From IMG/VR virus record IMGVR_UViG_3300042563_001911, positions 1 to 54,368 of that record: 54,368 nt of DNA. The stretch is one strand, 5' to 3'. Each line of letters opens with the position of its first letter. Position 1 is the first letter of the stretch. Shown here one piece after another: positions 23,141-36,099 of the stretch. Source of the stretch: a virus. A program made the translations under genes and the position numbers. Below the pieces are notes generated by a model. It searched no databases, had not been told where the DNA came from, and worked only from the letters and a program-made list of their open reading frames with translations.

Positions 23141-23177
23141 CTTCTTATGAAGTAAAGTATTTTGGTTTTTTTTATAA

Positions 23178-23184
23178 TATTTAT
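23178..23184 (+). promoter_or_regulatory. TATTTAT motif for the tail sheath gene
   Basis: 37 bases before ATG 23222, divergent from the RHH motif. Confidence 0.5.
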
Positions 23185-23221
23185 CAATAAAAATAAATTT
23201 ACAAATAAAAAAGACAAACTA

Positions 23222-26200
23222 ATGGCATCAAATCAAAAAGTATTCGTATCTCCCGGAGTATATACTTCTGAAGTTGATTTAAGTTTCGTAGCACAAAGTG
23301 TGGGAGTTACCACGTTGGGTATTGTGGGTGAGACCTTAAAAGGTCCCGCTTTCGAGCCTATCTTTATACGAAATTTTGATGAATTCACAAATTTCTTCGG
23401 TGGAACTTCTCCAGAAAAATTTATAAATACACAAATTCCAAAGTACGAAGCGGCTTATATTGCTAAATCATACTTACAACAATCTAACCAATTATTCGTA
23501 ACAAGAGTGTTAGGATTATCTGGTTACGACGCAGGACCATCTTGGTCTATCACCACAAAAGCGAATGTTAACCCGACAACGGTTGATTTCTTTTGTGAAA
23601 GTGCAACTACAGTTAATTGTGTTACTGAATGTATAGACTTTAAAACTATAAACTATTCTGTTGAATTTTCAGCGTGTACTAATAGTATTAACACTGTTAG
23701 TTTTACAAACACATCTAGTTTACCATCTGAAATATCTTCAATTTTGTATGAACCTTACGAACAATTTGATGGTTCAATGTCAACATTGTTTGATGATATG
23801 TCAAGTCAAATTTTTGATATCGTTTCAACACCGGCTAAAGAAGACACTTCAATTAATTATTATGGTGCAATACCAACTAGTGTTTATTCGGGTTTAAGTT
23901 CAGTATATACTGGTGAAACTAATGTTTACGGAGTGGATAATGTAAGTTCAAATTTATGTAATTATTCAGCACCTCAAAATGACCCTTGGTATTACTCATT
24001 ATTTGATAATGTTGGTAATGCTTCTTATACAGGATTTTCATTTTGGTCTGTTGTTACAGGATTAACATTGACACCAATAATTACAACAACAACATCAACT
24101 TCAACGACGACATCAACAACAAACCCTTGTACAACAACAACATCAACATCAACTACGTCAACAACAACAGCAAAACCTGTTAATTGTTATACAGGTACAT
24201 TGATTGGGGTGATTTATATTTATTCGGGTACGGCATATACAGATTATGATGACTTAGTTGTTGCAACACTTCGTTCAAGAGGATTGTCAACATATGGTTT
24301 GGAAAATGGACCTGTTTATGAAGTTTCGGGTTTAACGGATGTTAGTTTAGATTGTACCGGGACATATTCAGGTGTAACTAAGAACCCATTTTCAACTTTT
24401 GGTGTTAATATTACAAGTAAAGATGGTGACCAATATTTCTTTGAAACATCATTATCAAATTCAGATTCAAAATATATTAGTAAAGTGTTTGGTTCAACTA
24501 ACTTCTCAAAACCAAGAACAGTAGTTCCATTATTTGTTGAAGAAAGATTCCAAGCTTTATTAACGAATGCTTGGAGAATGGGTTATATTAGAGGTTTAAA
24601 TTGTGAATTAACAGCTTTACCTGATGCTCGTCAATCGATTGACCCAACATCAATAGCTTTTTACTTAGAAAAATTCCAATCACCGGTTTCTCCGTGGGTT
24701 GTTTCAGAATTAAGAGGTAATAAAGTTTATAACTTATTTAAATTTACAACTATTGCAGATGGTGATTCAGCAAATATTGATATTAAAATATCAATTGCAA
24801 ATATGTCATTTAACAATGGTACTTTTGATGTATTAATTAGAGATTTCTTTGATACTGATTCATCACCTGTTGTTCTTGAAAAATACACTAATTGTAGTAT
24901 GAACCCTCAAGATAATTCATTTGTTGGTAAAAAAATTGGTAGTTTAGATGGAGAATATCCTTTATTGTCAAGTTATGTTATGGTTGAAATTAACGAGGAT
25001 GCACCAATAGATGCTCTTCCTTGTGGATTCTTAGGATACGATTATAGAGAATATGCTGGTGTAAGACCACCATTCCCATTAATTAAATCTAAATATTATT
25101 ATCCTGGTGAAGTAGTTTATAATCCACCGTTTGGGTTAGCTTCAGGAGCGGATGATTCAACAACAAGTGCTGGTGATAATGTAAGAAGAACTTATTTAGG
25201 TATTTCAGATACTGAAGGTATTGATGTTGATTTCTTCCAATATAAAGGAACTCAACTTCCTTTAGATATTTGTAATGATACTGAAGGTAATCCTTGGAAT
25301 TTTAGAACAAGAGGTTTCCACATGGACAAAAACGCAAGTGGTATTACAATTCCAAATATATTTGTAACAAGTGGTACTCCGGCATTCTTTTGTGGTGACG
25401 CACCATTTACATCAGACCCTGATAGTGAACTTAACCCTTATTATAGAATTTACGCACGTAAATTCACATTCTTAGTAAAAGGTGGTTTTGATGGTTGGGA
25501 TATCTATAGAGAATTTAGAACAAATAAAGATGAGTTTATGTTAGGTAGAAAAGGTTATTTAAATGGTTCCTGTCCTACTATCAAATATCCTACGGCATCA
25601 GGTTGGGGAGCATTTAAACAAATTATTGTTGCTGGTAACACTCAAGATTGGGCAAACACCGATTATTACGCTTATTTATTAGGTCAACAAACATTTGCGA
25701 ATCCTGAGGCGGTAAACATCAATGTGTTTGTAACACCGGGTATTGATTATGTTAATAACTCTAATTTAGTTGAGAGTGCTATTGATATGATTGAATATAG
25801 TAGAGCGGATTCGTTGTACGTATGTACAACTCCTGACTACAATATGTATGTTCCGTCAACAGGTAATCAATTAGATTTTATTTACCCACAAGAAGCTGTA
25901 GATAATTTGGCAAATTCAGGTATTGACTCTAACTATACCGCTACTTATTACCCTTGGGTGTTAATGAGAGATACTGTTAACAATACTCAGATTTACTTAC
26001 CGGCAACTGCTGAGGTAACAAGAAACTTAGCGTTAACGGATAATATTGCATTTCCTTGGTTCGCTGCGGCGGGTTACACAAGAGGTATCGTAAACGCTGT
26101 TAAAGCGAGAGTTAAATTGACACAAGAGAATAGAGATACTTTATATCAAGGTCGTTTAAATCCAATCGCAACGTTCTCTGATGTTGGAACTGTAATTTGG

Positions 26201-26548
26201 GGTAATAAAACTCTTCAAGTTAGACAATCAGCTCTTGACAGAATCAACGTAAGAAGATTATTACTTCAAGCACGTAAATTAATATCGGCAGTTTCTGTTA
26301 GATTATTATTTGAACAAAACGATGCTAAAGTAAGACAAGATTTCTTAGATTCTGTTAACCCAATATTAGACTCTATTAGAAGAGATAGAGGTCTTTATGA
26401 TTTCCGTGTAACTGTTTCGTCTGACGCAGCTGATTTAGACAGAAATCAAATGACTGGTAAGATTTATATCAAACCAACCAAATCGTTAGAATTTATAGAC
26501 ATTACGTTCTATATTACTCCAACCGGAGCTTCTTTCGAGAATATATAA
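23222..26548 (+). CDS. gp18: Tail sheath protein, T4 gp18-like, with a large Ser/Thr-rich insertion
   Basis: 1108 aa from ATG 23222 (an upstream in-frame ATG at 23162 would include promoter-like sequence). The N-terminal sheath hallmark is VFVSPGVYTSEVDLSFVAQS with GIVGETLKGPAFEP. The C-terminal handshake region is INVRRLLLQARKLISAVSVR to KIYIKPTKSLEFIDITFYIT. T4 gp18 is 659 aa, so about 400 residues are extra, much of it after ~150. Residues 288-316 are a pure Thr/Ser tract with one Asn-Pro-Cys break. Sheath protomers polymerise around the tail tube and contract on infection. Inserts in sheath proteins usually face outward, so this one may be displayed along the tail (inference). Confidence 0.92.
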   Translation: MASNQKVFVSPGVYTSEVDLSFVAQSVGVTTLGIVGETLKGPAFEPIFIRNFDEFTNFFGGTSPEKFINTQIPKYEAAYIAKSYLQQSNQLFVTRVLGLSGYDAGPSWSITTKANVNPTTVDFFCESATTVNCVTECIDFKTINYSVEFSACTNSINTVSFTNTSSLPSEISSILYEPYEQFDGSMSTLFDDMSSQIFDIVSTPAKEDTSINYYGAIPTSVYSGLSSVYTGETNVYGVDNVSSNLCNYSAPQNDPWYYSLFDNVGNASYTGFSFWSVVTGLTLTPIITTTTSTSTTTSTTNPCTTTTSTSTTSTTTAKPVNCYTGTLIGVIYIYSGTAYTDYDDLVVATLRSRGLSTYGLENGPVYEVSGLTDVSLDCTGTYSGVTKNPFSTFGVNITSKDGDQYFFETSLSNSDSKYISKVFGSTNFSKPRTVVPLFVEERFQALLTNAWRMGYIRGLNCELTALPDARQSIDPTSIAFYLEKFQSPVSPWVVSELRGNKVYNLFKFTTIADGDSANIDIKISIANMSFNNGTFDVLIRDFFDTDSSPVVLEKYTNCSMNPQDNSFVGKKIGSLDGEYPLLSSYVMVEINEDAPIDALPCGFLGYDYREYAGVRPPFPLIKSKYYYPGEVVYNPPFGLASGADDSTTSAGDNVRRTYLGISDTEGIDVDFFQYKGTQLPLDICNDTEGNPWNFRTRGFHMDKNASGITIPNIFVTSGTPAFFCGDAPFTSDPDSELNPYYRIYARKFTFLVKGGFDGWDIYREFRTNKDEFMLGRKGYLNGSCPTIKYPTASGWGAFKQIIVAGNTQDWANTDYYAYLLGQQTFANPEAVNINVFVTPGIDYVNNSNLVESAIDMIEYSRADSLYVCTTPDYNMYVPSTGNQLDFIYPQEAVDNLANSGIDSNYTATYYPWVLMRDTVNNTQIYLPATAEVTRNLALTDNIAFPWFAAAGYTRGIVNAVKARVKLTQENRDTLYQGRLNPIATFSDVGTVIWGNKTLQVRQSALDRINVRRLLLQARKLISAVSVRLLFEQNDAKVRQDFLDSVNPILDSIRRDRGLYDFRVTVSSDAADLDRNQMTGKIYIKPTKSLEFIDITFYITPTGASFENI
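24083..24169 (+). repeat. ACA/TCA tract encoding a Ser/Thr mucin-like segment in the sheath
   Basis: 29 codons, 26 of them Thr or Ser, interrupted once by Asn-Pro-Cys. Similar in composition to the poly-Thr linker at 12220-12300. Because it is in the sheath protomer it would be repeated in every subunit of the tail. Confidence 0.88.
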
Positions 26549-26606: not shown

Positions 26607-27425
26607 ATGTTAAAAAATAAAATAATTGAAGGAATTGACGAGGAAGGTGCTCCGGATGAGAAGTATTACGCTTTTGATTGGGACGATAATATAGTTTCAA
26701 TGCCAACTAAAATAATCTTAAAAGATGAAGATGGTGATGAGGTTGGAATGTCAACTGAAGATTTCGCAACTTATAGAGAAATTATAGGTAAGGAACCATT
26801 TGAATTTGATAAACACACCATTGTTGGATTTTCAGAAGACCCTTTTAGATATTTCGGGGTTAAAGGTGATAAACAATTTATTGTTGATTCTATGTTAGCA
26901 AAACCGGGACCGGCTTGGGCTGATTTTGTTGAAGCAATTAATAATGGGTCAATTTTTTCTATAGTTACTGCGAGAGGGCACACACCATCAGTATTAAAAG
27001 AGGCTTGTTATAATTATATTGTATCAAACCGTAATGGAATTAATTCAACTGAGTTAGTTAAAAATTTAGAAAAATATAGAGATTTAGCTGATGAAGAAAA
27101 TGTTTCTAAAAAGGAGATGATTAGAGAATATTTAGATTTATGTAAATTTTATCCTGTAAGTTATGGAGAAGGTTCCGCAACAAATCCGGAAGAAGGGAAA
27201 ATTAAAGCTTTAAAAGAATTTGTTCAATATGTTAAAGCAATGTCTCAACATATTCAAAAAAAGGCGTTCTTAAAAAATAAAATAAATAATTATTTTGTTC
27301 CTAAAGTAGGTTTTTCAGATGACGACATAAAAAATGTGGATGTAGTAAAGAAACATTTTGAGCAAGACCCAGAAAATATTATTAAAACTTATTCAACAGC
27401 AGGAGGAATAAAAAAAGAATATTAA
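26607..27425 (+). CDS. HAD-superfamily phosphatase-like protein
   Basis: 272 aa. HAD motifs are visible in order: motif I YAFDWDDNIVSMP (~23-35, DxDxx form), motif II FSIVTARGHTPSVLK (Thr at ~122) and motif IV KVGFSDDDIKN (~235). It keeps both motif I Asp residues, so phosphatase activity is plausible. It sits between sheath and tube genes, an odd place for a metabolic enzyme; related HAD-like proteins among phage structural genes are known to me but without assigned function. Role unknown. Confidence 0.7.
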   Translation: MLKNKIIEGIDEEGAPDEKYYAFDWDDNIVSMPTKIILKDEDGDEVGMSTEDFATYREIIGKEPFEFDKHTIVGFSEDPFRYFGVKGDKQFIVDSMLAKPGPAWADFVEAINNGSIFSIVTARGHTPSVLKEACYNYIVSNRNGINSTELVKNLEKYRDLADEENVSKKEMIREYLDLCKFYPVSYGEGSATNPEEGKIKALKEFVQYVKAMSQHIQKKAFLKNKINNYFVPKVGFSDDDIKNVDVVKKHFEQDPENIIKTYSTAGGIKKEY

Positions 27426-27604: not shown

Positions 27605-28093
27605 ATGGCTGATTTATTAATGAAAATGCCCATACCTTACGAACCTAAAAGACAAAATAGGTTTATTCTACGTTTTCCTTCAACATTAGGAATTAATGAA
27701 TGGTTCGTAGAATCGGCAGCAAGACCACATATAACAATTAATCCTGTTGCGATTCCATTTTTAAACACTGAAACATATGTTGCAGGTCGTTTTACATGGG
27801 GTACAATTAACGTTAAATTTCGTGACCCAATTGGTCCGTCAGCGTCACAAGCTCTTATGGAGTGGGTACGTTTATGTGCTGAATCAGTTACCGGACGTAT
27901 GGGATATGCTGCGGGATATAAAAAGAATATTGACCTTGAAATGTTGGACCCAACAGGTGTTGTTGTGGAAAAATGGATATTAGAAGGGACTTTCTTATCT
28001 GATGTTAATTTTGACGCTTTAGGGTATAGTCAAGATGCTTTAGCAACTATTTCTACAACATTACGTATGGATAGATGTATATTAGTTTACTAA
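27605..28093 (+). CDS. gp19: Tail tube protein, T4 gp19-like
   Basis: 162 aa, almost the length of T4 gp19 (163). Family pattern: PYEPKRQNRFILRFPSTLGI at the start, RPHITINPVAIPFLNT, FTWGTINVKFRDPIGPSASQ and a C-terminal LATISTTLRMDRCIL strand. Hexamers stack to form the tube through which DNA passes. It has its own promoter-like motif 40 bases upstream and a terminator 27 bases downstream, so it is probably transcribed as a strong monocistronic unit. Confidence 0.95.
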   Translation: MADLLMKMPIPYEPKRQNRFILRFPSTLGINEWFVESAARPHITINPVAIPFLNTETYVAGRFTWGTINVKFRDPIGPSASQALMEWVRLCAESVTGRMGYAAGYKKNIDLEMLDPTGVVVEKWILEGTFLSDVNFDALGYSQDALATISTTLRMDRCILVY

Positions 28094-28207: not shown

Positions 28208-28963
28208 ATGGATGAGAGTTTAATTAATGCAGGAACAGAAAATTTCACATTACCACATGATGTGGTATCATTACCTAGTGGTGGAATTTTTTATAAATCT
28301 AAAAGAAAATCGGTTAAAATCGGTTACTTAACAGCGTCTGATGAAAATTATTTAATTGGTGCGCTAGCGGGTAAAGAAAATGTGGTATTAACTTTATTAC
28401 GTAATAAATTATATGAACATGATTTACGTCCTGAAGAACTACTTGATGGTGATGTTGAAGCTATTTTGATATTTTTAAGAAATACTTCGTTTGGCGCTGA
28501 ATACACAGTTAATTTAACTGACCCACAAACTAACAAATTATTTACTCATACTGTTATATTGGATGAGTTAAATATTAAAAAAACCCAAAATCAACCGGAT
28601 GAAAATGGATTTTTCTTAACTAAATTACCTAAAACAGGTATTACTGTTAAATTAAGACCAACAACTTTCTATGATACTATTGAGTTAGATAAAATGGTTG
28701 AACAATATCCTGCAGGAAGACAGGCACCAAGAATTACTTGGAAATTACAAAAACAAATTGTTGAAATTGATGGGGATAACGATAGAGGTAAAATAGCTAT
28801 GTTTGTAGATACTTTACCAATTATGGACTCTAAATACATAAGAACTTTTTTAAGGGAGAATGAACCGTCATTGGACCTTAAGAGAACAGCAAACGCCCCG
28901 TCAGGAGAACTGGTATCTTTCGAGATAACCTTTGGGGTGGAGTTTTTTCGGCCTTTCTTTTAA
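28208..28963 (+). CDS. gp26: T4 gp26-like baseplate hub/tail-assembly protein (zero-frame product)
   Basis: 251 aa. It resembles the T4 base-plate protein family of gp26: VVSLPSGGIFYKSKRKSVKI at the start, YLTASDENYLIG, GDVEAILIFLRNTSFGAEY and PRITWKLQKQIVEI. Gene order is tube - this gene - short out-of-frame extension - tape measure, which is the order of frameshifted tail-assembly chaperone genes in lambda (G/GT) and P2 (E/E'). The zero frame ends TTC TTT TAA at 28955-28963; see the frameshift entry. Two TATTTAT motifs (28157, 28184) lie upstream. Confidence 0.72.
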   Translation: MDESLINAGTENFTLPHDVVSLPSGGIFYKSKRKSVKIGYLTASDENYLIGALAGKENVVLTLLRNKLYEHDLRPEELLDGDVEAILIFLRNTSFGAEYTVNLTDPQTNKLFTHTVILDELNIKKTQNQPDENGFFLTKLPKTGITVKLRPTTFYDTIELDKMVEQYPAGRQAPRITWKLQKQIVEIDGDNDRGKIAMFVDTLPIMDSKYIRTFLRENEPSLDLKRTANAPSGELVSFEITFGVEFFRPFF

Positions 28964-28964
28964 C
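28958..28964 (+). promoter_or_regulatory. Candidate +1 programmed frameshift site (TTT TAA C)
   Basis: The Phe codon TTT (28958-28960) is followed by stop TAA and C. Moving forward one base, the same tRNA can re-pair with TTT at 28959-28961 and the next codon is AAC. The +1 frame is open for 47 codons to TAA at 29103. A purine-rich GGGGTGGAG lies 15 bases upstream (28934-28942). This is the geometry of release-factor-2-type +1 shifts. Inference from sequence and gene order. Confidence 0.55.
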
Positions 28965-29105
28965 TATCGGCAACTTCTAATTGAGGAATATTACTTGATG
29001 GCTAAATTTATAAGGACTTCTTATAATGATTTCAACGAGATGCCCACTTATGTTAGAAAATTTTTAATAAACAGAATAATAGAAGATAATACACCAAAGA
29101 CGTAA
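28962..29105 (+). CDS. +1-frame extension of the gp26-like protein (47 aa), or a 35-aa stand-alone ORF
   Basis: Read in the +1 frame from AAC 28962 the peptide begins NYRQLLIEEYYLMAKFIRTS and ends RIIEDNTPKT. Residues 1-12 before the internal ATG (28998) look protein-like (helical YRQLLIEEYYL), which suggests a fusion of 298 aa rather than a free 35-aa peptide. Helical character with an MPTYVRKFLINRI core fits the small T-like half of tail-assembly chaperone pairs. The terminator stem overlaps its last codons. No ORF caller would join it to the gp26-like gene. Confidence 0.55.
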   Translation, partial: NYRQLLIEEYYLMAKFIRTSYNDFNEMPTYVRKFLINRIIEDNTPKT

Positions 29106-31083: not shown

Positions 31084-34000
31084 ATGGCAGAGAGTTCATT
31101 ATCATTTGCGTCCACGTCTTCCTTTAGAAATTCTCTAATGGCGAAAAACTTGGCACCTTATAGTGTTCAAGGAGTGTACACCCCACCGGCAAATCAAGTT
31201 AATTACGAAACCATTTTAGGTGTAAGTAATGTTATTGATTCACCAGGTGAGTTAATAACGAATGACCCATATGGTAATTTATTATATCCATTAAACGAAT
31301 ATGGACCTAATGGTGGGTATAATTTAGAAATTAATTTTAACGGACCTCCTTTACCTGTAAATTCAAATCAGGGGGAATATAACCCCAACGACACAGCGTT
31401 AGACTTACTTAATGAATTTTTTATTGATGCTGCTTATATTCAAAATGGGTATGGACCGTCGGGTGGTTATAATGATTTAGTTATTATAACAGATGTTGAA
31501 AATAACAATAAGATATATCAACCTTATTGGGAACCACCAAGTTTTGCTCCATCAACTTATTCGCCTTATAATATTTTATTATCAAATAATCCTATTGGAA
31601 GTAATGGGTTGCTATCTCAGGATTCTTTTATTGCGAGATTTGGAGCTCTTGAATTAAATTCGTTATTGAAAAAAAGAATTGATGCTGAATTATTTCAAAA
31701 CACATTAGGTCAAATAAATTTACAATCTCTACAAGACCCGTTTGAGATTAGTATGATGTTGTCAGGTCAACAACCTTTAATTTATAAAAATTGGAAGATT
31801 ACAGTGCCTGAAAACCCTGTTGTTGCCGCTGCCGACTTCTTAACAAGATTGGCGGGTGCTTATTGGCCAGTTTCATTAATACCGGGAGATTATTTCAATG
31901 ATAATAACGAAAATAGTCAAACACAACAAACATCAAATGCTTTAAGTACTGTTAATCAATTAACAGGTGGTTTATTAGGTCCAATATTAAATCTTAGTAG
32001 AGGTGGTTCACAAATATTTTTAGCCAACACAGGTAACGGACAAAGGTCAGTTTTATTTGCAAATATTAATTATAATAGATATCAACCATCATACGATAAA
32101 GATTATGGTTTATTATTTGGGGTTGCTCAAGGTCTTGTTAATTTATTAGTTCCAAATATTAATCCGGGTAATGGTACATTAGTTGGAGGTTATTATGTTG
32201 GTAATAGAACATCTGAACCTTCTTACATTACATCACCCCCAAATCAAATACCGGTTAACGCATTTGGTCAACAAGACCCTTCACCTGTATATGGTCCATC
32301 AGAGATGGGTATTTTATATGAAGGTAATGAATCAACACTTAACAATTTTGGTTTAGGAGGTAAGTCCTATAGTGACGGTGGGGGTATTGACGGAGGATTT
32401 GTTTGGGTATCTCCAAAATATAAAGCCAATGCTGGATTCAGAGCGATACCGGGTGGTGGTTCCGGAACTATGGATGAGGACTATCAATTGGTTAGTGGAA
32501 ACATCACTAGAGATGAATCAACAAACATTGAATTTAAATCAACATCAATATTAGACCAAACTCAAAGATTAATTGATTCGGCTGATAGTGTTACGGGTAT
32601 TGCTCGATTGAAACACGTTGGTAACGCAATGAATCAGATTAGTAAGGTATTCAATGATGGTTATAAAGAAATTACTAAAGGTTCTCAAGTTTTATCGTAT
32701 ACTGATAATACAACAGGTGGGGCTGCCGGTATTGAATATTGTAGAGTTTTCACAAAAGATAATCCTTATTACGCATATAATGATTTACAAAAAACAGATG
32801 GTATAACTACATCAGGTAGAAGATTTACTCATTCTGTTTTGGATAACACATATAATTTGAATATTACTCCATTAAGAAATCCGGGCTCAACAAACATTAT
32901 TGCGAATAATGTTAATGGAACGGGGGGATATGCTAAAAAATATATGTTCTCAATTGAGAATTTAGCTTGGAGAACATCAAGTAGACCTGGATTTACTTAT
33001 GATGAATTACCTGTTTGTGAGAAAGGTCCAAATGGTGGTAGAGTTATGTGGTTTCCTCCGTATGATTTAAAGTTTTCAGATAGTAGTACTGCTAATTGGA
33101 ATGATACTTCTTTCTTAGGTAGACCTGAACCAATTTACACATATAAAAATACAAGTAGAACAGGGAGTTTAAGTTGGAAGATTATTGTTGATAGTCCATC
33201 TGTAATGAATGCTGTTGTGGAAAAACAATTAAAAGGACAAAATAAAGAAAGGATTAATTCAATTATTGATTCATTTTTTGCTGGTTGTGTTAAGTATGAT
33301 ATTTATGAATTGGCGTTAAAATTTAATACTATACCAACAAAGGATTTATATACGTATCAAGAGATTTTAAGTAAACCAAATTTAACGAATGAAGAATTAA
33401 AAAGTGTAAGTGCTAGTATTCCAAGAGAAAATTCTGTAACTCAAGGAGGTGCGGGAACGCCTGGTGATGCAACAAATAGTACGACAAATCCGGATACTTC
33501 AATTGACGATTTCAAAAAGAATTATTCTCAGTTAGCGTTTTATTTTGATAATGATATTCCTGACCCAAACTCAAAAGGTGTTGTTTCTTCAGTTCCTTAT
33601 AATGAAACATATGAAACATATACTAGTGACGGAAATATTAAAACATATGTTGATACTGCAAGCGCAATTTTTAATGTTGGTGTTACTAATAGAAATGTTG
33701 GGGAGTTCTTTACTAATATTGTTAAGGATAATTATAAAAAAATTGCACTTAATGATAAAAACTTCATTGTTGACGCTTATAACATATTAAAAGAAAAAAA
33801 AGGTACTATAAATATTCAGATGGTTGGTTCAGCATCAGCAACTGCTAGTGTACCGTATAACACAAATTTATCTAAACGAAGAAATGATTCGGTTATCCAA
33901 TTTTTGAAAGAGTATAAAATAGGTGAAGCTAATTTAGCACCATTTTTTGAAAATGGAACTTTACAAATTACATTACAAAGTGGTGAAGGTGAAAAAATAT

Positions 34001-36099
34001 CTATTCCTCAAAGTGAGTCTGGTACGGGAACGCAAGTTGAATGTACTAAAAATGTTGTATCATCATCGGGTACAGATGTTTCTAACAAAAAAGCTGAGAC
34101 ATATTCAACAGATGCTATGGCATGTAGAAGAGTTAAAATTAATAGTATTGCAATTGCACCAATTGCTCCAACAACTATAGTAAAACCACCTGAAAAGGCG
34201 GAAATAATAACGCCTGAAGTGACCAATACAACAATTAATACGATTAAACCTGTTCAGACAGTTACAATTGAACAAAAATTAAAAGAAGGTATTGGGAAAA
34301 GAATTATTAGACAATTATTAACTGAATGTGACTATTTTGATGTTATTAAAGAAACTAATCCTATGGTATATGGGTCTATAGCGGATAAAATTAAATTTTT
34401 CAATCCCGCTTTTCACTCTATGACACCTGAAGGTTTAAATTCTAGACTTACATTTTTAAATCAATGTGTTAGACCTGGTGAAACAATTCCTGTGATAGGC
34501 GCGGACGGTAAACCAAAATATAATGATGCGGTTAATACTTCATTTGGAGCGCCACCGGTATTAGTATTGAGAATTGGGGATTTCTATAACGGAAAAATAA
34601 TTCCAAAAACAATATCATTTACATATGAACCATTATTGTTGGATATGAATCCGGAAGGAATTGGTATTCAACCGATGTTAGCTAACGTAAATTTAAGTTT
34701 TGATATGATTGGTGGTATGGGACTTGCTAGACCTGTCGAACAATTACAAAACGCGTTGTCATTTAATTTCTACGCAAATACTGAAATTTATGATGAAAGG
34801 GCTAAATGGACAGAAGATACTTCAGCGTTAGATGCTACATTAATCCAATCAATATTAAATGCTCAACCACCGGTTACTGTTAATAATGTTCAAAATGAAA
34901 TTACTAATGATGGTGGAAATACTATTGGTGACATATTAACTAACATTCCGGTTACTAGTGGTCAAACAGGGGAAATTACCTATATGAGTATTATGGATAA
35001 AATATTAGATGCTACGAAAGAATATTATACAAATGTTTTAAATCAAAGTGATAGTATTGTGAAATCATACAATTATGGTGTGTGGCAATTAATAACTCAG
35101 GATAGATTGTATACTTCGGGAGAAATAAGTTTAAATTCTAGTAGTATATTAGCTCCAATTTATGGAAAACCGGAAGGTGTTGAAACTAAAGTGGATTCAT
35201 TATTTAGTACATTTATATCAGATATTAATGCTGATAATCCAACTAATCAAAATTATATAATATCAAGATTAGTGGGTTATAAATTTACAGATGCGACAAT
35301 TCAACGAGTTAAAACAAATATGAATCAATATATTACCACATTAAAAGGGGGTTATAGTAGTGGTTTATTCACTAAAATTCAAGAAATTGTAATATTAGAA
35401 CAAAGTATGGTTCAAATTATTAGAAAAATAAATTTAGTAACAACTAAAACGGATGGTAAAATTTTAGACACCGGGATTCCTCGTGTTTATACTATTTCAG
35501 GTACAACCGAAGTTAATACCGCTAGTCTTGGGTCTCCATTAGACACATATCAAGAATTGTGTGATGACTATCGTTTAGTTGGTATTAGATTAGACGATTT
35601 TAATGTGTTAATGGATGCTGAAAAAATAATTACAACAGTTACTGTACCATATGAAGGTCCTGGTGAATTTGAACCAATTTCAAAAGATTTTGCAACAGCG
35701 TCAGTTCAGGATAAAAGACAATTTATGGTAATGGCTCAAATATTTAATGATAAAAATAAATTAACACAATTTAAGAATGCTATCATTAGCGGAGAATTAA
35801 AAAGTGATAATAAATTAGTTAGAAAATTTAATAATATTTGTGATGATTTTGCCGATTTAACTAAAAAAGAATTAATTGCTGAAGAAAAATTTATTAAAAC
35901 GATTAAAGGAAAAGAATCTTATTTAAAATTTGTAAATCAACCGGCTTATCCTAAAGGTAAATTGAGAAAGTTTACTTATACTACGGTTCCTGACCCTGCA
36001 ACTGAAACACAACAAAAAACAGATATTGCTAATTTATATAAAACTGTAAATGTTAATAATGATAAATTAACGTTTGATGGTAAAATAAAATTTGATTAA
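31084..36099 (+). CDS. Large baseplate/tail-tube-initiator-like protein with embedded OmpA-like domain
   Basis: 1671 aa. The N-terminal half (~1-600) is Gly/Asn/Pro-rich and low in recognisable motifs. Residues ~895-1025 look like an OmpA C-terminal domain: INIQMVGSASATAS, NTNLSKRRNDSVIQFL, a Glu-Gly-Glu loop and ACRRVKI. Residues ~1130-1260 (APPVLVLRIGDFYNGKI, SFTYEPLLLDMNPEGIGIQP) resemble baseplate proteins that cap the tail tube. It is followed after 2 bases by a LysM protein and then the giant hub. OmpA domains bind peptidoglycan; here the usual ligand Asp (TD in the family motif) is replaced by Ser-Ala. Function is inferred. Confidence 0.55.
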   Translation: MAESSLSFASTSSFRNSLMAKNLAPYSVQGVYTPPANQVNYETILGVSNVIDSPGELITNDPYGNLLYPLNEYGPNGGYNLEINFNGPPLPVNSNQGEYNPNDTALDLLNEFFIDAAYIQNGYGPSGGYNDLVIITDVENNNKIYQPYWEPPSFAPSTYSPYNILLSNNPIGSNGLLSQDSFIARFGALELNSLLKKRIDAELFQNTLGQINLQSLQDPFEISMMLSGQQPLIYKNWKITVPENPVVAAADFLTRLAGAYWPVSLIPGDYFNDNNENSQTQQTSNALSTVNQLTGGLLGPILNLSRGGSQIFLANTGNGQRSVLFANINYNRYQPSYDKDYGLLFGVAQGLVNLLVPNINPGNGTLVGGYYVGNRTSEPSYITSPPNQIPVNAFGQQDPSPVYGPSEMGILYEGNESTLNNFGLGGKSYSDGGGIDGGFVWVSPKYKANAGFRAIPGGGSGTMDEDYQLVSGNITRDESTNIEFKSTSILDQTQRLIDSADSVTGIARLKHVGNAMNQISKVFNDGYKEITKGSQVLSYTDNTTGGAAGIEYCRVFTKDNPYYAYNDLQKTDGITTSGRRFTHSVLDNTYNLNITPLRNPGSTNIIANNVNGTGGYAKKYMFSIENLAWRTSSRPGFTYDELPVCEKGPNGGRVMWFPPYDLKFSDSSTANWNDTSFLGRPEPIYTYKNTSRTGSLSWKIIVDSPSVMNAVVEKQLKGQNKERINSIIDSFFAGCVKYDIYELALKFNTIPTKDLYTYQEILSKPNLTNEELKSVSASIPRENSVTQGGAGTPGDATNSTTNPDTSIDDFKKNYSQLAFYFDNDIPDPNSKGVVSSVPYNETYETYTSDGNIKTYVDTASAIFNVGVTNRNVGEFFTNIVKDNYKKIALNDKNFIVDAYNILKEKKGTINIQMVGSASATASVPYNTNLSKRRNDSVIQFLKEYKIGEANLAPFFENGTLQITLQSGEGEKISIPQSESGTGTQVECTKNVVSSSGTDVSNKKAETYSTDAMACRRVKINSIAIAPIAPTTIVKPPEKAEIITPEVTNTTINTIKPVQTVTIEQKLKEGIGKRIIRQLLTECDYFDVIKETNPMVYGSIADKIKFFNPAFHSMTPEGLNSRLTFLNQCVRPGETIPVIGADGKPKYNDAVNTSFGAPPVLVLRIGDFYNGKIIPKTISFTYEPLLLDMNPEGIGIQPMLANVNLSFDMIGGMGLARPVEQLQNALSFNFYANTEIYDERAKWTEDTSALDATLIQSILNAQPPVTVNNVQNEITNDGGNTIGDILTNIPVTSGQTGEITYMSIMDKILDATKEYYTNVLNQSDSIVKSYNYGVWQLITQDRLYTSGEISLNSSSILAPIYGKPEGVETKVDSLFSTFISDINADNPTNQNYIISRLVGYKFTDATIQRVKTNMNQYITTLKGGYSSGLFTKIQEIVILEQSMVQIIRKINLVTTKTDGKILDTGIPRVYTISGTTEVNTASLGSPLDTYQELCDDYRLVGIRLDDFNVLMDAEKIITTVTVPYEGPGEFEPISKDFATASVQDKRQFMVMAQIFNDKNKLTQFKNAIISGELKSDNKLVRKFNNICDDFADLTKKELIAEEKFIKTIKGKESYLKFVNQPAYPKGKLRKFTYTTVPDPATETQQKTDIANLYKTVNVNNDKLTFDGKIKFD

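Follow-up and report, generated by a model that had tools for sequence, protein, structure and literature searches.

The virus record IMGVR_UViG_3300042563_001911 (54,368 bases, positions 1 to 54,368; the whole stretch that we analysed, hereafter the window) carries, between a tail tube gene and a probable tape measure gene, an open reading frame (ORF) related to the T4 gene pair gp26/gp51, beyond which the frame one base ahead stays open as a short extension (Table 1). Comparing this locus with its relatives, we conclude that the gene probably encodes a T4-type tail assembly chaperone (TAC) made in two forms, the longer of which would arise by a +1 ribosomal frameshift at TTT TTT CGG. A sequence-only reading had already proposed a +1 shift here, placing it on the stop codon of the gene. 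That observation itself, including the +1 direction, is confirmed; the position of the slip is what we revise.

A gp26-like tail gene with an extension one frame ahead

The gp26-like identity of the ORF holds up: it matches PF12322 T4_baseplate (gp26/gp51) with E=7e-9 and 36.1 bits, above the curated cut-off of 24.5, and the baseplate hub family phrog_150 at 5.2e-11. The ORF ends CCT TTC TTT TAA C. Shifted forward by one base, the reading frame stays open between 28929, just after a TAA at 28926-28928, and the stop at 29103-29105, and within it we confirmed the predicted open extension of 47 codons that runs from 28962 and reads NYRQLLIEEYYLMAKFIRTS....

With the window's protein as query 148 matches were confirmed and 80 viral relatives kept, and two alignment-based scans contributed at least 160 further loci. 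The 247 loci examined comprise the scans, the viral relatives with the exception of one locus (L048), seven phage records and the window itself; two run off their contig, and the remainder correspond to 183 distinct loci, as judged over 120 nucleotides (nt) around the stop. In the locus set aside (L048:3001-3754) an A-rich run precedes a break of the gp26 frame at codon 36, and the gene resumes one base ahead, which we attribute to an indel or a sequencing error.

An extension in the same frame as in the window follows the gene in 79 of the 80 viral relatives, one of them (L068) being cut by the contig end. Across the distinct loci, a +1-frame extension of at least 40 codons is present in 177/183, as compared with 29/183 that have at least 40 open codons in the other frame. 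Five of the six loci without a full +1 extension end at a contig edge, and the sixth, L225, has its extension in the -1 frame; the extension frame is thus +1 in nearly every locus and not, as the question had been put, always. Genome contigs supplied eleven more loci, of which two share an identical site; all are +1, with TTT TTT T(GG or TC) CCT, and Rhodothermus phage RM378 likewise has the +1 form. Both frames are conserved across loci; the predicted short and long forms would share their N-terminal part.

Could the extension instead be a small protein of its own, translated from ATG 28998 or TTG 28995 by an independent start or by translational coupling? At the position that aligns with the window's ATG, 76 of the 177 loci do have an ATG, GTG or TTG (ATG in 41), and in the public records of three phages, immuto (L082:3833-3943), SP-15 (L086:3740-3859) and Mel-JY01 (L089:3695-3931), all or some of the extension is entered as a hypothetical coding sequence of its own. 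However, separate ORFs with starts of their own are not what we found across the family, since no start is universal: the first 25 extension codons hold an ATG in 80/177 loci (97 have none) and any of ATG, GTG and TTG in 121/177 (56 have none). Moreover, the motif FFGL...YR, conserved in the +1 frame, precedes most of these starts, and the domains of both parts, PF12322 and DUF6760, lie in a single frame in the bacterial loci L274 and L275 described below. We therefore consider independent initiation extremely improbable.

Where the ribosome would slip

Upstream of the stop, the gene holds two adjacent phenylalanine codons. This Phe-Phe pair is TTT TTT in 167/183 loci, TTC TTT in 7, TTT CTT in 6, and TTT CTA, CTT TTT and TTC TTC in one locus each; Flavobacterium phage immuto reads TTT CTT TGG here. 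The codon after the pair is TGG (102 loci), CGG (32) or TAC (31) in 165/183, followed by CCT in 171/183. At the Phe-Phe codons the tRNA can re-pair cognately in +1 in all loci but one, whereas at the codon directly ahead of the stop it can do so in 16/183. Among 164 nonredundant loci, some have a stop in the +1 frame before the pair is reached (29 loci at codon -4, 20 at codon -2), and therefore the slip must come later in those loci. Past the pair, codons +4 to +7 are less variable in the +1 frame (2.67, 2.74, 2.62 and 1.61 bits; n=163, 151, 39 and 34) than in the zero frame (3.16, 3.28, 2.94 and 2.76 bits), and FFGL...YR is gap-free in an alignment of 36 extensions that start at the pair. 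Judged by this comparison, the slip most likely occurs at TTT TTT, 12 bases upstream of the TTT TAA junction, so that the tail proper most likely begins about 12 bases earlier than had been thought (FF-GLSF-NYRQ) and counts 51 codons.

The original proposal was a stop-codon-driven slip of tRNA-Phe from the TTT before the stop; in such a slip the P-site tRNA would move forward by one base while UAA is slowly decoded in the A site. Re-pairing there would indeed be perfect in the window and in the other loci with TTT before TAA, but these are few: TTT TAA accounts for 14/183 loci, as compared with TTC TAA in 23, GAG TGA in 11, ACC TGA in 7 and others elsewhere, and many loci of the window's own group have TTC before TAA, where a slip from UUC to UCU is mismatched. 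The identity of the stop (TAA 92, TGA 71, TAG 20) and its distance from the pair vary as well, and the +1 frame is already conserved upstream of it. A stop-codon-driven slip is thus very improbable. What survives of the proposal is tRNA-Phe as the slipping tRNA, with its codons moved to the TTT TTT at 28943-28948 and CGG, in place of a stop, in the A site.

A shift of -2 on the T-run, which would add one Phe, ends in the identical frame. Such a shift is used by phage Mu, according to PMC5009743, and UUU could re-pair in this way at the Phe-Phe codons of 168/183 loci, the window included. However, of the 15 loci without cognate -2 re-pairing, 14 allow +1, and an upstream duplex, reported to favour +1, may hinder backward movement; we regard a -2 shift as very improbable. 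Transcriptional slippage, in which the length of the T-run would be altered in part of the mRNAs, would suit the loci whose longest run is 7 (121/183) or 8 (4/183), but the run is 6 in 43/183 loci, including the window, and merely 3-4 in 15/183. It would also leave the conserved A-site and CCT context and the upstream RNA without an obvious role, and we hold it to be highly improbable. A +1 slip at TTT TTT predicts the junction peptide GVEFFGLSFNYR, a slip at the stop predicts ...RPFFNYRQ, and a -2 shift predicts an extra Phe.

Table 1. Features of the chaperone locus (positions in the window)
Feature	Position	Strand	Basis or remark
Short form, probable tail assembly chaperone of the T4 gp26 type (TAC-N), 251 amino acids, zero frame	28208..28963	+	PF12322, phrog_150, AlphaFold2 model
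Putative shift site TTT TTT CGG (then CCT)	28943..28951	+	+1 re-pairing possible in 182/183 loci
Zero-frame stop TAA of short form	28961..28963	+	1-6 codons past the P-site codon of the Phe-Phe pair in 183 loci
+1-frame extension (TAC-C), 51 codons GLSFNYRQ...NTPKT plus stop	28950..29105	+	Conserved onward from shift site; AlphaFold2 model
Predicted 5' RNA stem-loop, arms 28894-28900 (CGCCCCG) and 28933-28939 (UGGGGUG)	28894..28939	+	Ends 3 nt before Phe-Phe codons
Shine-Dalgarno-like motif AGGAG	28903..28907	+	Unpaired 5' side of stem, 35 nt before Phe-Phe codons
Upstream neighbour, tail tube protein	27605..28093	+	phrog_4542 tail tube, 3.2e-25
Downstream neighbour, probable tape measure protein, 631 amino acids	29151..31046	+	Position only

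Upstream RNA and codon context

Tested against synonymous-codon shuffles, the RNA just upstream of the site folds better than expected. In 122 loci the mean z of region -42..-6 is -1.18, as compared with -0.11 to -0.28 in three control regions; when the set is reduced to 86 loci that share less than 70% identity, the excess is greatest at -36..-1, with a mean z of -1.32 (p=3.9e-11). A fold with a minimum free energy (MFE) of -10 kcal/mol or lower that ends within 6 nt of the site is found in 47.7% of loci and in 10.8% of shuffles. The window's own stem-loop has an MFE of -16.0 kcal/mol for 28893-28942 (z -1.25; 22/200 dinucleotide shuffles as good). Among 28 window-type loci, its outer stem pairs in 95.8% of alignment cells but hardly varies; for the upper stem the figure is 71.9%. 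There are 19 cells with a two-sided change, as compared with 6.4 ± 1.7 in shuffles and at most 8 in slid versions of the stem, and none of 500 shuffles reaches the covariation score, which suggests covariation in the upstream stem.

The same region is rich in Shine-Dalgarno (SD)-like motifs. In the 86 loci, SD-like 5-mers (such as GGAGG) occur 109 times at 12-29 nt before the pair, as compared with 28.2 in synonymous shuffles, and 50/86 loci have such a motif within -36..-13; the window's AGGAG lies farther from the pair than this enriched range. In window-type loci the motif sits on the unpaired side of the upstream stem. A first test of anti-SD pairing gave a mixed picture: 82/183 loci had at least five pairs at the site, while the three control positions farther upstream scored 106, 4 and 17. 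Close to the site, pairing by Watson-Crick pairs only is not enriched over synonymous shuffles in the 86 loci (mean 2.92 vs 3.06), and with G-U pairs allowed it is slightly higher (3.71 vs 3.50, p=0.007).

An effect of such RNA on the direction of slippage has a precedent: Huang et al. 2018 (PMC6321510) report that on 70S ribosomes an upstream hairpin beside the E site stimulates +1 and attenuates -1 frameshifting. According to PMC8710568, in Bacteroidia 523/726 prfB genes retain their +1 site despite an occluded anti-SD.

A T directly before the T-run, which would create the -1 site T TTT TTT, is disfavoured: it is found in 8/183 loci, as compared with 73.3 expected from each gene's codon use (0/20,000 simulations as low), and the heptamer itself is present in four loci. 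In none of the 183 loci is the A-site codon a stop; it is TGG, CGG, TAC or another sense codon. As counted in the window's own ORFs, CGG is very rare, with 7 occurrences in 16,641 codons of the ORFs of at least 150 amino acids (third rarest of the 61 sense codons). Six ORFs of the tail region, 4,095 codons in all, hold a single CGG, the one at the putative shift site. A search of the window for tRNA genes found none.

The frame, the site and the conservation of the extension, the excess of upstream folding and of SD-like motifs and the avoidance of the -1 heptamer all come from comparison across loci; that the long form is made, and in what amount, is what we infer, as are the effect of the upstream RNA and the role of the protein. 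Most ribosomes would reach the TAA and release the short form (...GVEFFRPFF). At TTT TTT CGG some would slip forward by one base, the P-site tRNA-Phe re-pairing from UUU 28946-28948 to UUC 28947-28949 while the very rare CGG 28949-28951 waits in the A site, and would then read GGC next and go on to make a long form of 298 amino acids (...GVEFF-GLSFNYRQ...). Forward movement is probably promoted, and -1 movement impeded, by the upstream RNA: the stem in the window and, in many relatives, an SD-like motif at 12-29 nt from the pair.

Whether this holds widely is a further matter. We give about even chances to the broader proposal that in many uncultured T4-type contractile-tail phages a natural upstream RNA element, a stem that stops a few bases short of the site and is often accompanied by an SD-like motif at 12-29 nt, drives +1 frameshifting at UUU-UUU-(UGG/CGG/UAC)-CCU and suppresses -1, without a stop in the A site, the T4 gp26/gp51 pair being a two-gene alternative. 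Our confidence in this proposal and in the two-form reading of the window is somewhat lowered by the SD-like enrichment together with the mixed pair counts, and the following observations weigh against the two-form reading. Kinship among the loci means that the counts are not independent events. The direction has exceptions: L225 (IMGVR_UViG_3300010883_010859), the sole counted locus (1/183) with its extension in the -1 frame, has the site GCA AAT TTC TTC, which lacks the +1 slippery UUU and holds the -1 heptamer A AAT TTC (X XXY YYZ), possibly by a natural switch of shift direction or else by an indel error in this single contig. Three relatives outside the 183-locus set, Atu_ph07, Cassandra and LR756511, likewise encode the extension domain in -1 and carry T TTT TTC. 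At the site itself, codon +3 is slightly less variable in the zero frame (0.26 vs 0.35 bits in +1), and distant members deviate at the A-site position (AGT in LIS04; CCC in QdP_Psa3, also compatible with a slip at CCC TAA). The A-site codon found most often among the relatives, TGG, makes up 189/16,641 codons of the window's ORFs and is not rare there.

The remaining counterpoints concern the RNA. A weaker folding excess, with z between -0.28 and -0.39, also covers -96..-43 and, in the 86 loci, another lies downstream at +31..+66 (z -0.90) and +67..+102 (z -0.75), most other intervals between and beyond having z near zero. The window's stem taken alone is not significant, and in the 28 loci neither the base pairs with two-sided change (4 vs 3.9; 363/500 shuffles reach it) nor the further pair types (10 vs 11.2 in shuffles) are in excess. 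SD-like motifs at the spacing known from prfB (0-11 nt) are not enriched (1 vs 3.4 in shuffles); we rejected an SD stimulator at that spacing and retained the SD-like element farther out. Since hairpin and SD-like motif overlap in place, the stimulator could be either the hairpin or an mRNA-rRNA duplex. Finally, the hairpin effect of PMC6321510 was obtained in vitro on CUUUGA, the site of release factor 2 (RF2), without RF2, and for +1 amounted to ~60% of the SD effect.

The two predicted protein forms, their neighbours and known systems

The AlphaFold2 model of the short form (predicted local distance difference test, pLDDT, 87.8) suggests a likeness to the HK97 tail assembly chaperone 2ob9, which is the top match in Foldseek (probability 0.85, E 0.29) and the best in VIA (Z 5.7, root-mean-square deviation 3.2 over 78 residues; next entry 2.2), a Z under 8 being on its own no proof of a shared fold. 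In a sequence search of the PDB the short-form profile hit a single entry, with E 0.54, and T4 gp51 hit none. The gp26-like gene is probably a tail assembly chaperone.

The model of the extension consists of three helices (pLDDT 88.5), and a fold search with it returned four PDB matches, none with E under 8. By sequence, 8/36 extensions, that of the window not among them, match PF20546 DUF6760 with an E of 1 or less (best 1.6e-5), and phrog_634, 'baseplate hub assembly catalyst', matches 5/36 (best 0.015); T4 gp51 matches phrog_634 too. Two loci from bacterial genomes (L274:859-1623 and L275:859-1623) encode a 255-amino-acid ORF that carries PF12322 and DUF6760 in a single frame, with DUF6760 above its cut-off in L274 and below it in L275, which suggests a tail assembly chaperone that ends in DUF6760 as its C-terminal domain. 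The gene that precedes this ORF looks tube-like by eye, from which we guess that the ORF possibly belongs to a contractile injection system. By analogy with lambda gpGT, the three-helix domain of the long form would bring tail tube subunits to a tape measure coated with chaperone.

The position between tail tube and tape measure that had been claimed for the gene is borne out, on the tube side by phrog_4542 and on the other side by position. Searches with family profiles and PHROG found no tape-measure family match for the downstream ORF; phages immuto and LIS04 have a tape measure annotated at the equivalent position, the annotated order being tail tube, chaperone, tape measure in LIS04 and the gene followed by the tape measure in immuto. 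Three further ORFs of the tail region deserve mention. Between the tail sheath and tail tube genes lies an ORF of 272 amino acids with a DWDDN motif (26607-27425), which we take to resemble a hydrolase of the HAD type, unusual for that location. The tail sheath ORF (23162-26548) exceeds 1,100 amino acids, threonine/serine-rich low-complexity stretches preceding its sheath domains. After the probable tape measure gene comes an ORF of 1,671 amino acids (31084-36099) without a PHROG match.

In T4, as the sequence-only reading had it, gp26 and gp51 come from separate genes: both match PF12322 (8.8e-64 and 3.9e-52), and they are divergently encoded paralogues, whereas the window family has one gene with a shift. 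T4 gp51 is longer at its C-terminus than gp26, and an hhalign comparison of this end with the extension profile, weak as it is (P=0.002, probability 13%, score 19.4; at most 12.9 in 50 column shuffles and 13.8 for the N-terminal part of gp51), suggests at the level of sequence that the two are related. Vladimirov and colleagues are said to have claimed, in a title of 2022, that T4-like phages make both chaperones without frameshifting. PMC10885494 and PMC12846349 credit the two-gene use in T4-like phages to Vladimirov 2022, and the latter also cites that work when it speaks of -1 signals of the poly-T kind in chaperone genes of T4-like phages.

Frameshifting in tail chaperone genes is itself already known; what would be new is a +1 shift with a shared signal in the T4-type family. 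The review PMC5009743 describes such frameshifts as conserved 'except T4', as -1, -2 or +1 in different phages, and as very likely +1 in the archaeal myovirus HSTV-2. The likeness to lambda G/GT that had been drawn is supported, as the frameshift would occupy the corresponding gene position; however, the lambda shift is -1, whereas that of the T4-type (PF12322) window family would be +1, at YUU-Y and with upstream RNA features. With prfB, the gene for RF2, the family shares a P-site YUU that re-pairs +1 (six loci have CUU-U) and possibly an upstream duplex, but prfB has a stop in the A site and a close SD, and the window family has neither, its SD-like motifs lying at 12-29 nt. The hairpin next to the E site recalls those described in PMC6321510, which were designed and placed on the RF2 site; here it would be natural and accompanied by an SD-like motif. 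Listeria phages PSA, A118 and A500 also use +1 shifts in structural genes, but there, according to PMC5009743, at a proline codon before the stop (CCC_UGA) and in major tail and (PSA) capsid genes. Among the titles and abstracts listed by our searches of the open-access literature, none reports that a T4-type or gp26-like chaperone uses a +1 shift; Vladimirov et al. 2022 may contain part of this.

One practical consequence is that some phage records list the chaperone in two pieces, with the extension not joined to the gp26-like gene. If the broader proposal is true, it would amount to a widespread +1 frameshift without an A-site stop, stimulated by an upstream RNA element of a kind represented by designed hairpins in PMC6321510. 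The comparison further suggests that the T4 exception is local: T4's own family appears to frameshift forward in many relatives, with a shared signal.
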